Positions 1 to 5,720 of a DNA stretch of 5,877 nt are shown here, piece after piece. Source of the stretch: Nitrospinae bacterium RIFCSPLOWO2_12_FULL_45_22. Lineage in GTDB: Bacteria; 2-12-FULL-45-22. The stretch lies in assembly GCA_001803565.1 (NCBI GenBank), contig MHDQ01000280.1, positions 1-5,877 on the forward strand. The letters are read 5' to 3'. Within the stretch, counting starts at the first letter, position 1. Every line of letters begins with the position of its first letter. The position numbers and the translations under genes were made by a program. Below the pieces are notes generated by a model, which saw only the letters and a program-made list of their open reading frames with translations, was not told where the DNA came from and did not search any database.

Positions 1-3000
1 AGTATAAGCCTTATCCTGTTGGCCCTTAGCCTGCTATTTTTTATTATGGAGGAATATAATTTACGGACGGCCTTACTAGCGGCCCTAACCCTCTCGGCCT
101 TTCTCAACACTTATCCCTGGATGCTGGGTTATCTCTTAGGTCCTATCGGTATTTATCTGCTCTATCTCTGGCGCTGGCAAAAAAAACCTTTATCGGAATT
201 AATCAATACCGTAGTTAAGACCGCCTTTTTTGCCTTATGCTTCAATCCTCTGGTCATTATCCGACTTGTCCGACAATTATCCTGGCTCTCAAGGTTACCT
301 AAGGCCTATCTTGGTGGTAACATAACAGAATTTATAAGTCTGACAGAGCTTTATGGCTTATCCCACCACCGGTTAGCTGATGAAGGCTGGTATCTTTCTC
401 CGTATTTTCAAATCCTTATCCTGTTTATATTCGCCGGTGCCCTGGCTTTAACCTTCTATGGGTTGATAATAGCATCAGGCAAGCAGCGGGCATTGCTCCT
501 GTCTCTGGCTATTCCTTCCATTCTCAACTTCTTTTATTTGAAATACCTGGCCGATTATCCTTACGGTTTTTTTAAGAACCTCTCTATGTCAATAACAATT
601 ACTATGATGCTATTGCCCATAGGCTTATTCTCCTTGTATGGCCGGATAAAGAGACATCCCTGGCCTGGCTTAATCGGGAACAGGTTTGCCGGGCTTCTTC
701 TGGGTCTACCCCTCGCCTTTGCCGGGGCATATATCCTGATCAATATCTATACCCTCGTCCTTTTGACTAAAGTGACCAGTAAAAGCATGACCCTTAATCT
801 CTCGGCCCTGAAAGATCTAGCTACCAAAGTCAAGTCGCTCCACATCCCCGGCCCTATCTACCTTAAAGATGATAAAGAGACCCGGATGCTCTGGCTTACT
901 TATTTCCTGGAGAGCCAGCCCCTGGCCTTAAATAACCTCTCTCCTTTGATCTATTACGAGATGTATCCCTTTGCCAGGCCAAAGGATTTTTACCAGGATG
1001 GAATAAGTCAAGACTATGTGCTGGTAAAGCGAGAAAGAGATATGCTACCCACCTGGGCAGAAAAAGTCCTCTATGAAAATCGGGAATATCAGTTGTTAAA
1101 GAAAAAGCCAGAAGTACTTTATCACCTGGACCTTAAACCCCGACCCTTATTATTACATAACCGGGATAAGGTAAAGATAACGGTTCAACCGGAGAGGATA
1201 GCGATCAATTCCCGGAGTTATAACCTTCCCGGGGCTCTCTCAGCTCAGGGCCAGGAGTTAGGGCTAAGGTTCTTCGCCCCCCGAGGAGCGGGCTATGTAT
1301 GGGAGCAAGACGGGATAAAAAAGACCATATACCTAGGGCAAGATACCGGTAAAATAAAGAAAGAAATAGGGCCTTGGCCATTCCAGATAGAAATAACCAA
1401 CCTGAGCCCCCGTACCATGATCTTTCCCTGGTTAGAGATCACTGGGAAAAAAGATATATCGGCGGAAACATTTATGCCTCCTAGAGGCACAAAGGAGGAT
1501 AAAAATGTCATTGCGAGGAGCGGGTACCCACCCGAAAGTGTGGGTGGGACGAAGCAATCTCATAAGATTGCCACGCCCGCCTTCGGCGAGCTCGCAATGA
1601 CAAGAGAGGGCTTATTTTCAAAGGATAGTATTCTTAGTTACTTTCCGGAGCCTATGCTGCCTGATACGGATTTTTATATTGTAGCAGGCTGGTATGATCT
1701 GGATCTGACGGATAAGGGTGAGAAAGGGCGCTGGACTGGGGCTAATGCCATATGCCTCTTCCGGAATCCTTATAAGAAAAGCCTCTTAAAGATAAAAGGA
1801 CAGGTCTCCCACTGGGCAATAGAGGGGAAGAAAGTACCACGGGTGCAGATTCTTCTCAATGGGTTCCGGCTAGATAATTTTATCCCCCAGGATCAGGAAT
1901 TTGTGCGGGAATTAATCCTGGATAAAAGCAACCTGGGCAATAGCCAGTGGTGTGAGCTATCTTTCGGAGTGGATAAGACCATTACCCCACACCAATATGA
2001 TCATAGTGGTGACCGGCGGGAACTAGGGATAAAGATTACCCACATTCAACGCACGGACTATTATAACCCCCCGGAGAAGCTCTTCCCTGGCTCAGAATTT
2101 TATCTGGTAAAAGGCTGGCATGAGCTGGAATCAAAAAAAACTAAGGATCAAGCTTACCGTTGGACTAAGGCCAAAGCCCGCACCCTCTTCCGAAACCCCC
2201 ACAAGAAGAGCCTCTTGCGGCTCAGGGGGGAACTGCCCTATCTAGACCTAAACGCTCCCTCCCGGCCTAATATTAAGCTCTTGCTCAACGGTAATCTCCT
2301 GGCTAATTTTGTCGCCCAGGATAAAAATATAAGGAAAAATTTTGTCCTGGAAGGAGACTCATTGGGTAGCGAGGCCTGGTGCGAGCTAGAGCTGGCTATT
2401 GACAAGACTGTTATCCCCAAAATGCAAGAAGGAAAAGAAGACCGACGAGAGCTGGGTATAAAGATCACCCGTTTAGACCTGCATGACTATTTTGCCCCAC
2501 CAGAAAGAGTCCTCCCAGACTCAACGGTTGATCTTTATGCAATTACTGGCTGGCATGAGCTGGAATATGGCAATAAAATAGCCAGGAACCATCCCCGGCG
2601 CTGGACAGAAGCCCAGGCCCTGGCCTTGCTAAAAAACCCTGGCCGGGAAGGAACCCTGGGGATAGCTGGCACCCTCCCACCAATCTCCTTTCCTTCCCCA
2701 CCCATCGTCCAAATATTACTCCGGGGCGAGGAGATAGATAGATTCGTACCAGCAGGTAAAGAATTTTATCGGGAGCTCCCGGTTACTAAAGACCTACTGG
2801 GCCCTTCTCCCTGGCTGGAGCTATCATTCTCCACCAATCAGGTATTTATCCCCGATGCCCATTATAAAACCGGAGATCACCGGGAATTAGGGATTTGTAT
2901 AACCAGGGTAGATTTTAGAGAAGGGACTTTGGGTAGCCAGAGAGCTGAGCCGGTCGTAGATTTTGGCAAGCCAGAAGCCCATAAATATATAGCGAATGGA

Positions 3001-4653
3001 TGGTCCTGGGATGAGACCTGGCCAGATGGTAGGGACTTCAACTGGGCCTGCAATAAGGAATCTATTCTAAAGCTAAACCTACCAAAGGTCTCAGACTATG
3101 TTATGAATTTAAGGATGATCCCTTTCCGGGGGCCCACTAACTCATCGCAGCAGATGAATATCTACCTTAATGGACACCTCCTAACCGGGTTAAGGTTGAT
3201 CAATGATCAGTGGCTGGAATACCAGGTATTTATCCCCTATGATTATCTCTCTACCCTCGAGACCAATACCTTCCGGCTTGGGTATAAATATCTGGGCTCT
3301 GTGCCGGGCGATAGCCGGAGTCTAGCTGCTGCCTTTGATCGAATTAGCTTTACTAAAACCGGTCTGCAACGATTATTACCCGATTCTGCTCTCTATATGG
3401 GTCAGGGTTGGTATGAGTTAGAAGAAGACCCAGAGACAGGTAGGTACTGGCGGAAAGGCAATAATGGTGCTGAATTCTGGCTAAAAAAAACCCGGGAAAA
3501 TACCTATCTTAGTCTTAAAGGAGAATTAATATCCTATCCTGAGGGGGGGTCGTCCCAGGTCCAGTTGTGGACAGGGGAAAAAGAGCTGGGCCGGATAAAA
3601 ACTGTAGGCAGAGCCTTTGCTGGCGAGATAAGGATAACACCAGAACTCTTTTCTGATTCAACCTGGCTCAAGCTTAATATCACCACTACCCGGAAGGAGA
3701 AAAGGGTAAGCTTTAAGGTACAGGAATTGCGCCTGCAAGAGAGAGTCCTGCCTGACTCACCGGCTCGGGTGATAAGGGGCTGGAGTGATCTAGAGATAGT
3801 TAGTGAGCAAGAGGAGTATTGGCGTTGGACAGAAGATGCAGCAGAGGCAGACCTACCCAGTTCGAAGGAAGGGGGATATTGGCAACTCCTGGGAGAAACC
3901 CTGCCCTTAAAGGCTTATCCGACACCACCTCAGATCAAGCTAGAACTTAATGGTAAAGAGATGGACTCTTTTGTCCCTCTCAATCCCCAATTCCTATGGC
4001 AGTATAGCGCCCCAAAAGAACCGGTAAAATTAAGACTAAGCATAGACCAGACAGTTATACCGAATAGTTTCTACCATAACGGTGACCAGCGCCGGGTCGG
4101 TTTGAAGATAAAGGGCCTGCGTCATCTTAACGGGCAAGAGCAACTGCCCGGGTTATTAATCAATTTGGGAGAGAAGAGGGCAAGAGATTATCTCCGCGCT
4201 GGCTGGTCCAGTGATGAGCGGGGAGATAATATGACCAGTTTTGTCTGGGCCACGGCCAAAGAGGCCTTGCTCCAATTCTCCTTACCCCGGAAAGCCGATT
4301 ATTTCCTGAACCTGAGGCTGATGCCTTTTACCTTCCCAGGGGCATCTCAACAGACCACCAAAGTTTATCTTAATGACAAATTGCTAGCCGAGATACCCTT
4401 GATTAAACCGGAATGGCAAACATACCAGCTATTTATCTGGACTAAGTATCTGGCCCGTAAAGGCCCTAACACCCTCCGCCTGGTCCATAGCTATACCCAA
4501 ATACCCAGGCAGGTACTGGCCAGCCAGGACCAGCGAGACCTGGCAGTAGCTTATGACTATATCTCCTTTATTCCAGCACCAGCCACCACCAAACCCCCTC
4601 TGCTCCTACGCCTAAAGCGCAAACTCCACTACCTCTGGACTCGCTCCCTATAA
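1..4653 (+). CDS. Giant polytopic membrane protein with seven C-terminal beta-domain repeats (5'-partial; GT-C/PMT-like glycosyltransferase candidate)
   Basis: The frame is open to the left edge, so the true start lies upstream; the TTG at 19 is only the first possible start inside the window. Residues are counted from that codon (1544 to the TAA at 4651). Hydrophobic segments lie near residues 1-10, 16-30, 34-52, 62-83, 129-152, 158-176, 187-208 and 222-250. A soluble segment follows (about 255-490), including a beta-rich part from about 375. Seven tandem domains then fill about 547-1520, and a basic tail (RLKRKLHYLW) ends the protein. Helices followed by extracytoplasmic domains, with a tyrosine-rich KYLADYPYGFFK stretch before a helix, resemble large GT-C/PMT-like membrane glycosyltransferases as I remember them. 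The catalytic acidic loop of that fold would be in the missing N-terminus, so activity cannot be confirmed. The repeats look like carbohydrate-binding-type beta-sandwiches facing the periplasm or cell surface. Residues 497-528 come from an inserted palindromic element. The reading frame is certain; the function is an inference. Confidence 0.9.
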   Translation, partial: SISLILLALSLLFFIMEEYNLRTALLAALTLSAFLNTYPWMLGYLLGPIGIYLLYLWRWQKKPLSELINTVVKTAFFALCFNPLVIIRLVRQLSWLSRLPKAYLGGNITEFISLTELYGLSHHRLADEGWYLSPYFQILILFIFAGALALTFYGLIIASGKQRALLLSLAIPSILNFFYLKYLADYPYGFFKNLSMSITITMMLLPIGLFSLYGRIKRHPWPGLIGNRFAGLLLGLPLAFAGAYILINIYTLVLLTKVTSKSMTLNLSALKDLATKVKSLHIPGPIYLKDDKETRMLWLTYFLESQPLALNNLSPLIYYEMYPFARPKDFYQDGISQDYVLVKRERDMLPTWAEKVLYENREYQLLKKKPEVLYHLDLKPRPLLLHNRDKVKITVQPERIAINSRSYNLPGALSAQGQELGLRFFAPRGAGYVWEQDGIKKTIYLGQDTGKIKKEIGPWPFQIEITNLSPRTMIFPWLEITGKKDISAETFMPPRGTKEDKNVIARSGYPPESVGGTKQSHKIATPAFGELAMTREGLFSKDSILSYFPEPMLPDTDFYIVAGWYDLDLTDKGEKGRWTGANAICLFRNPYKKSLLKIKGQVSHWAIEGKKVPRVQILLNGFRLDNFIPQDQEFVRELILDKSNLGNSQWCELSFGVDKTITPHQYDHSGDRRELGIKITHIQRTDYYNPPEKLFPGSEFYLVKGWHELESKKTKDQAYRWTKAKARTLFRNPHKKSLLRLRGELPYLDLNAPSRPNIKLLLNGNLLANFVAQDKNIRKNFVLEGDSLGSEAWCELELAIDKTVIPKMQEGKEDRRELGIKITRLDLHDYFAPPERVLPDSTVDLYAITGWHELEYGNKIARNHPRRWTEAQALALLKNPGREGTLGIAGTLPPISFPSPPIVQILLRGEEIDRFVPAGKEFYRELPVTKDLLGPSPWLELSFSTNQVFIPDAHYKTGDHRELGICITRVDFREGTLGSQRAEPVVDFGKPEAHKYIANGWSWDETWPDGRDFNWACNKESILKLNLPKVSDYVMNLRMIPFRGPTNSSQQMNIYLNGHLLTGLRLINDQWLEYQVFIPYDYLSTLETNTFRLGYKYLGSVPGDSRSLAAAFDRISFTKTGLQRLLPDSALYMGQGWYELEEDPETGRYWRKGNNGAEFWLKKTRENTYLSLKGELISYPEGGSSQVQLWTGEKELGRIKTVGRAFAGEIRITPELFSDSTWLKLNITTTRKEKRVSFKVQELRLQERVLPDSPARVIRGWSDLEIVSEQEEYWRWTEDAAEADLPSSKEGGYWQLLGETLPLKAYPTPPQIKLELNGKEMDSFVPLNPQFLWQYSAPKEPVKLRLSIDQTVIPNSFYHNGDQRRVGLKIKGLRHLNGQEQLPGLLINLGEKRARDYLRAGWSSDERGDNMTSFVWATAKEALLQFSLPRKADYFLNLRLMPFTFPGASQQTTKVYLNDKLLAEIPLIKPEWQTYQLFIWTKYLARKGPNTLRLVHSYTQIPRQVLASQDQRDLAVAYDYISFIPAPATTKPPLLLRLKRKLHYLWTRSL
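1506..1602. mobile_element. 97-bp palindromic (MITE/REP-like) element inserted in frame in the large gene
   Basis: The ends are a perfect 12-bp inverted repeat: TGTCATTGCGAG at 1506-1517 and CTCGCAATGACA at 1591-1602. Inside are further pairings: GCGGG (1520-1524) with CCCGC (1576-1580), CCCACCC (1527-1533) with GGGTGGG (1542-1548), and GCAATCT (1554-1560) with AGATTGC (1565-1571) across a CATA loop. A small CGCC/GGCG hairpin at 1578-1588 competes with one of these. There is no room for a transposase, so any movement would need one supplied in trans. Elements beginning TGTCATTGCGAGGAGC and containing GACGAAGCAATCT are, from memory, dispersed in many copies in diverse bacterial genomes. No clear target-site duplication is visible: the flanks are AA on the left and AG on the right. 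The encoded residues (497-528 of the large protein) fall in the linker before domain A1. Confidence 0.85.
1657..4578 (+). repeat. Seven tandem protein-domain repeats, order A-A-A-B-A-A-B
   Basis: The boundaries I read are A1 1657-2079, A2 2080-2511, A3 2512-2952, B1 2953-3375, A4 3376-3747, A5 3748-4152 and B2 4153-4578, or 124-147 codons each. Type A opens with LPDS/LPDT-like residues, then GW(Y/H)(D/E)L(E/D) and RWT. A central strand reads (V/I)(Q/K)(I/L)LLNG or similar, and most copies end in GD(R/H)RELGI. Type B opens with GWS(W/S)DE, then a W-A core, LNLR(M/L)(I/M)PF, QQ, YLN and a final A(F/Y)D(R/Y)ISF. Both types share the opening GW and the aromatic W(T/A) core, so they are probably distant relatives. 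A1 and A2 are closest to each other. A4 lacks the terminal GDRRELGI block and is the shortest. Modules of this kind occur, from memory, at the C-termini of large membrane glycosyltransferase-like proteins. Sugar binding is inferred, not shown. Confidence 0.8.
2113..2566 (+). repeat. 19-bp exact direct repeat in domains A2 and A3
   Basis: GGCTGGCATGAGCTGGAAT occurs at 2113-2131 and again at 2548-2566, 435 bp (145 codons) apart. Both copies encode GWHELE at the same place in adjacent A domains. The span given runs from the first copy to the second. The spacing is a whole number of codons, so recombination between copies would add or remove exactly one domain without shifting the frame. Confidence 0.85.
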
Positions 4654-5071: not shown

Positions 5072-5131
5072 AACAGGGATAGATAGGATGAACAGGATGT
5101 CCTATTTGCTTCTATCCTGTTTATCCCTGTT
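5072..5131. repeat. Imperfect inverted repeat made of 9-nt units (CAGGAT family)
   Basis: AACAGGGATA (5072-5081) pairs with TATCCCTGTT (5122-5131), and AACAGGAT (5091-5098) pairs with ATCCTGTT (5114-5121). The left arm reads as three 9-nt units: ACAGGGATA / GATAGGATG / AACAGGATG. The right arm, read on the other strand, holds two: ACAGGGATA / AACAGGATA. The unpaired 9-nt bulge (5082-5090) is therefore exactly one unit. A stray inverted copy, TATCCTGT, lies at 5052-5059. Repeats of this word type are, from memory, scattered in the intergenic regions of many bacterial genomes. The function is unknown. Confidence 0.75.
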
Positions 5132-5330: not shown

Positions 5331-5720
5331 ATGAGCACAGAAGACGCCTATCAGAAAGGCCTGGAGGTTATGGAGCACCTTATGGGTGCTGCCGGTCGGG
5401 ATGGGGTAGTGAAATGGTTCGATGAGTTCGACCCTGAATTGGCCCAGATGGTGGTGGGACATATCTTCGGCACAGTCTGGACCCGACCGGGGATGGACAT
5501 GCGCAGCCGTTCCCTGATTACCATGGCTACCCTGGCTGCCCTCAACCGCGGCCCGCAATTACGTGTCCATATCCAAGGTGCCCTCAACCTGGGCATATCA
5601 GAAAAGGAGATTGTAGAATTGTTGGTCCACATCGGCTTTTATGCGGGGTTACCAGTGATGGCCGAGGGTCTTAAAGCCGCCCGGGAGATTTTCGATGAGC
5701 GGCGGCAAGGGACAAAGTAA
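5331..5720 (+). CDS. Carboxymuconolactone decarboxylase (CMD) family protein, PcaC-like
   Basis: This gene is complete, at 129 residues, the usual size for a single-domain CMD protein (PF02627, small all-helical, cytoplasmic, usually oligomeric). The CMD core is clear: GMDMRSRSLITMATLAAL (residues 54-71), PQLRVHIQGALNLGIS (75-90) and EIVELLVHIGFYAGLPV (93-109). The RVH histidine (80) and the ELLxHxGFYAG block match the 4-carboxymuconolactone decarboxylase branch. The protein contains no cysteine, which excludes the AhpD-type peroxidase branch with its CxxC motif. I chose the ATG at 5331 because G-rich Shine-Dalgarno-like sequence (5317-5328) precedes it and the family normally starts about here. 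An in-frame GTG at 5277 would add 18 unlikely residues. No other protocatechuate-pathway gene is visible, so the real substrate is unknown; many such proteins are not true PcaC. The dehydrogenase fragment follows 50 bp downstream on the same strand. Confidence 0.93.
   Translation: MSTEDAYQKGLEVMEHLMGAAGRDGVVKWFDEFDPELAQMVVGHIFGTVWTRPGMDMRSRSLITMATLAALNRGPQLRVHIQGALNLGISEKEIVELLVHIGFYAGLPVMAEGLKAAREIFDERRQGTK

Follow-up and report, generated by a model that had tools for sequence, protein, structure and literature searches.

How does a short palindromic repeat come to lie inside a long protein gene that stays open through it, and has the protein made any use of the insert? This question is raised by the window, by which we mean the whole 5,877-bp stretch of DNA analysed here; it is the entire contig C280 of genome G000 (3.67 Mb, 321 contigs). 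An initial annotation of these letters had described a 97-bp palindromic element domesticated as in-frame coding sequence. Here, we examine the structure of this element, its other copies, its insertion site and its likeness to known repeats.

A composite palindromic repeat within a large gene

The host gene (1..4653, + strand) is a frame of 1550 codons that runs without a stop from base 1, its 5′ end lying beyond the contig, and the element lies wholly within this frame, as had been claimed. The encoded protein begins with five TM-like stretches, all of them (5/5) within the first 256 residues, which are followed by a beta-rich region and then by a domain that carries the motif GW(Y/H)(D/E)LE and is present several times. 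The first of these repeat domains starts at 1639..1692 (+, YFPEPMLPDTDFYIVAGW) and is paralogous to YYNPPEKLFPGSEFYLVKGW at 2059 and YFAPPERVLPDSTVDLYAITGW at 2488. Searches of Pfam and NCBIfam returned zero matches for the host protein or for the insert peptide. No homologue of the host protein was found in the phylum of G000, represented in the comparison by two species (G000 and G001), or on the GTDB contigs, and across the genomes of relatives homologues were absent except for a weak domain match in G035, a genome of another phylum. Downstream of the host gene, a gene of the carboxymuconolactone decarboxylase family (PF02627) is present at 5331-5720, and the intergenic DNA at 5072-5131 holds an inverted repeat (AACAGGGATAGATAGGAT / ATCCTGTTTATCCCTGTT) that resembles another common interspersed repeat.

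The repeat itself (1506..1602, +) consists of two GTCATTGCGAG...GCAATC half-elements arranged tail to tail and in the host frame encodes VIARSGYPPESVGGTKQSHKIATPAFGELAMT. Half-element 1 (1507..1559, +) is a short imperfect palindrome with the internal stem GGGTACCCACCC...GGGTGGG, and half-element 2 (1566..1601, -) is in the opposite orientation (GTCATTGCGAGCTCGCCGAAGGCGGGCGTGGCAATC). The inverted arms at 1506-1517 and 1591-1602 are perfect over 12 bp, and TGTCATTGC is found at both outer ends of the 97-bp element. When folded as a single strand, the 97 nt form a closed multi-stem structure of -32.1 kcal/mol, compared with -14.2 ± 2.5 kcal/mol for shuffles of the same nucleotides (z = -7.2; 0/200 as good). 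The palindromic character and the internal stems reported at first are thus confirmed. The 12-bp terminal repeats also exist as described; however, since the element is built of two half-elements whose tails face each other, these ends are the heads of two opposed monomers and not the ends of a transposon-like unit. No clear direct repeat that could represent a target duplication was found at 1505/1603, and a search of Rfam with the repeat gave no match.

Among the three + frames, that of the host is the only one without a stop across the 97 bp. The insert peptide is hydrophilic, and the tryptic peptides that translation through the repeat would yield include SGYPPESVGGTK and IATPAFGELAMTR. 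A structural model of this region predicted from the single sequence was uninformative (pLDDT 36).

Other copies of the repeat and their genomic context

In the G000 genome (3.67 Mb), the 11-mer GTCATTGCGAG was counted 24 times and its reversed control once, which excludes that the repeat lacks other copies in the genome. In total, there are 24 head words, 19 half-elements and about 16 loci, and both head-to-head and tail-to-tail pairs are present. Half-element 1 is 92% identical to the copy on C134 over 52 bp and 88% identical to the copy on C101 over 57 aligned columns; these two copies are intergenic or flank genes. If the peptide were simply a normal stretch of the protein under selection, with a coincidental palindrome in its coding sequence, this would agree with the open frame and the hydrophilic composition, but the DNA identity to the C134 and C101 copies, the many further copies and a palindromicity far beyond that of shuffled sequences make this explanation extremely improbable. 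Because the longest exact match between the 97 bp and the other G000 loci fetched is 18 bp, a false join at the repeat during assembly is unlikely.

Two other copies each form the C-terminal tail and the stop codon of a gene, one encoding a DegT-like aminotransferase (L007, on C54) and the other a histidine kinase (L003, on C30). By ORF context across the about 16 loci, no G000 copy other than that in the window is wholly within a long gene, and the rest are intergenic or overlap weak ORFs only. This agrees with the expectation of a multi-copy repeat that is usually intergenic. On the assumption that some 85% of G000 is coding, a count of at most 1 in 16 within genes would arise by chance with a probability of about 6e-12, an indication that most copies landing in genes are lost. 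In G001, which is the nearest relative compared and the second species of the phylum, 0 of the 19 loci sampled lay in a credible gene, and nearly all pairs were head to head. Two candidates for in-gene copies in G001 were rejected as spurious ORFs.

The family extends well beyond this phylum. A gapped half-element pattern was found in 24 of 116 genomes sampled across phyla, with zero matches for the reversed control, and the highest count was 443 half-elements in one complete genome (G063). A stricter pattern matched at least 119 GTDB stretches on more than 100 contigs, and the matches listed include Bradyrhizobium, Rhodopseudomonas, Chloroflexi, Omnitrophota, Bacteroidota, Patescibacteria and others. 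Genes for Y1_Tnp (RAYT) were present in 19 of the 24 repeat-bearing genomes versus 48 of the 92 without the repeat (Fisher P about 0.02). They were absent from the repeat-richest genome, G063, and from G042, and in G000, two of the five Y1_Tnp places (C282 and C37, among the matches listed) were on contigs without a copy of the repeat. A literature search found no relevant paper that names the GTCATTGCGAG sequence.

In-frame copies were also found in genes of other genomes. A type III DNA methyltransferase gene (L184, G066:C12:103039-106071) contains two in-frame copies about 40 codons apart, which read VIARNEVTKQS and VIARSGSDEAI. At the second of them, where the protein reads LEKLTSSPVIARSGSDEAIPLDDLLDG, the extra residues are missing in seven homologues (LELFTDLDDLLDG and similar). 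This is a clean empty site, and the repeat is read here in the VIAR frame that the window copy also uses. Further cases are likely in a PfkB kinase of Omnitrophica (L058), in which the repeat falls in a hairpin whose length varies, so that the site is not a clean empty site; in a glycosyltransferase of Chloroflexi (L091); and in a ScpB-like protein of Endomicrobia (L102), of which the repeat forms the C-terminal tail. Several long ORFs that span copies in high-GC genomes were left uncounted because many chance ORFs occur there.

The insertion site and alternative origins

In the paralogous junctions of the host protein, the distance from the start of IKIT to the start of the YYNPPEK or YFAPPER that comes next is 10 residues, whereas 69 residues separate the start of LEIT from the start of YFPEP at the insertion junction. 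By this comparison, the insert sits in the linker directly before the first repeat domain, in line with the linker position proposed at the outset.

The initial annotation had further reasoned that a 97-bp insertion must have been accompanied by a 2-bp duplication to preserve the frame. A left extension of the repeat (1465..1505, +), which encodes ETFMPPRGTKEDKN, is common to the C30 copy, and 1465-1522 is 83% identical to that copy; a possible right extension (1603..1607, +) is also common to the C30 copy, with a match that spans 1566-1607. The common repeat is thus longer than 97 bp, and as the 138 bp of 1465-1602 make 46 codons, the duplication need not be assumed.

The left flank of the C30 copy also matches the linker of a tandem uvrA at C214 at 42 of 49 bases, through GTCATT inclusive. 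A flank of about 45 bp is thus common to window positions 1465-1505, to L003 (G000:C30:8512-8569, -) and to L229 (G000:C214:3117-3165), and its three genomic occurrences share one reading frame (ETFMPPRGTKEDKNVIARS, EAFMPLQGTKDNENVIAGS and EASMPGQGTRDYENVIIKGAREHN). The tandem uvrA at C214 is an open frame of 1785 residues, and the linkers of tandem-UvrA homologues are of like length and of unrelated sequence. The uvrA linker may have been either the donor or the recipient of the left-flank sequence. It is conceivable, yet distinctly unlikely in our estimation, that the repeat moves as a translatable cassette, in which the 41-bp left flank and the hairpins (138 bp, 46 codons) would be copied with the frame kept and a piece of the uvrA linker would have been acquired at the shared AATGTCATT.

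We consider it likely that a composite copy of a short palindromic repeat from a widespread family inserted in a linker of a large extracytoplasmic protein and was kept there as neutral residues. The pair of half-elements would have entered the segment that links the membrane-anchored part to the first repeat domain. It would have been retained because a stop-free frame runs through the repeat and the linker is flexible, which would give the host protein about 30-46 neutral residues. The repeat probably propagates either as a non-autonomous element or through recombination or repair between hairpin-forming copies. The analysis establishes the identity of the repeat, its copy number, the open frame, the linker position and an in-frame insertion of the family, with an empty site, in another gene; we infer that the window copy inserted into a pre-existing intact gene and that its peptide is translated and neutral.

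Alternatively, the repeat may have lain in the gap between two separate genes, one membrane glycosyltransferase-like and one for the repeat domains, or over the 3′ end of the first; its stop-free frame would then have fused them, or re-initiation at ATG 1597 would keep two products. The copies on C54 and C30, which already form C-terminal tails of genes in G000, would suit such an origin, as would the repeat domains of G035, which sit in separate proteins. In addition, a strong Shine-Dalgarno-like AAAGGAGG (1491-1498) stands six bases before ATG 1505, from which a 31-codon ORF in another frame runs to TGA 1598-1600 (1491..1600, +, in all) and ends in an ATGA overlap with the host-frame ATG 1597. 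This ORF and its Shine-Dalgarno-like site may be due to chance, and such a motif was found upstream of 0 of the 23 other G000 heads scanned. A downstream product, starting MTREGLFSKDSILSYF, would be without a signal sequence or membrane segment, though its domains look extracytoplasmic; moreover, a single frame is open on both sides of the repeat with similar base composition by codon position, and no promoter-like or terminator-like site was seen at the junction. Given these points, an origin from two genes seems unlikely.

The Shine-Dalgarno-like site and the ATGA overlap, which are specific to the window copy, together with the stable hairpin that the full 97 nt form as a single strand, could also be read as signs of co-option, in which the peptide or the mRNA hairpin would have a function, for example to make translation pause after the membrane part and before the exported domains, or to provide an internal start. 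Against this, the window copy carries no sign of selection, and most small repeats in genes are regarded as neutral or slightly harmful (PMC2229807); we therefore hold co-option to be very unlikely. The term "domesticated" is likewise unsupported, since the analysis gave no hint that the peptide is functional or conserved, and orthologues for a comparison were not found.

These observations show that the in-frame insertion of small palindromic repeats is no peculiarity of Rickettsia and happens with a family found in many phyla too, the window adding a further example from a poorly sampled phylum. Natural in-frame insertions of this family, such as those in the DNA methyltransferase with two copies, form a large set that can be tested. 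The observations also call for caution in annotation, as peptides such as VIARS, SLRGAKRRSNL and HCEERSDEAI can stem from the translation of a repeat when they turn up in a predicted protein.

Comparison with known palindromic repeats

Small gene-less repeats that form hairpins and are sometimes fused in frame to genes are also known among the MITEs (ERIC and NEMIS/Correia; PMC2229807). MITEs, however, consist of one unit that is bounded by terminal inverted repeats and mostly flanked by target-site duplications, whereas the ends of the window repeat are the heads of two monomers.

The CGTC-tagged REPs are similar in several respects. The window repeat has a TGTC tag followed by the AT of the stem in TGTCATTGC at both outer ends, and, as in those REPs, its family consists of self-complementary monomers that form head-to-head and tail-to-tail dimers and are mainly intergenic. 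Some dimers of CGTC-tagged REPs are intragenic and encode 20-30 residues (Di Nocera 2013, PMC3733652). In contrast to their stem of 8-9 bp with a loop of 4-5 nt, the monomers of the window family are about 26-53 nt long, with ATTGC/GCAAT ends (5 bp) and an imperfect interior of variable length, and their tail is CTC instead of CCA. Because the 8-9 bp stem is absent although the TGTC-AT head is present, we did not file the repeat as a member of the CGTC-tagged REPs.

The Rickettsia palindromic elements (RPEs), to which the element had been compared from the start, provide a parallel that holds, as the window repeat is in frame inside a gene. Like it, RPEs are palindromic repeats of about 100 bp that lie in frame within protein genes at exposed sites; they share the motif ATGAC (in the window, GTCAT at 1507-1511 and ATGAC at 1597-1601), and their insertions also reach beyond the typical repeat. 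They differ in that the host phylum here is not that of Rickettsia. Sequence identity of the window repeat with RPE-7, which is reported to be 99 bp long (PMC2267715), is no more than a lead. Within genes, REP dimers and RPEs usually contribute 20-30 residues at exposed positions (PMC3733652, PMC3767692, PMC2229807). The repeat in the window works like elements of the RPE/REP type, for which insertion into genes is already known from Rickettsia and other bacteria.
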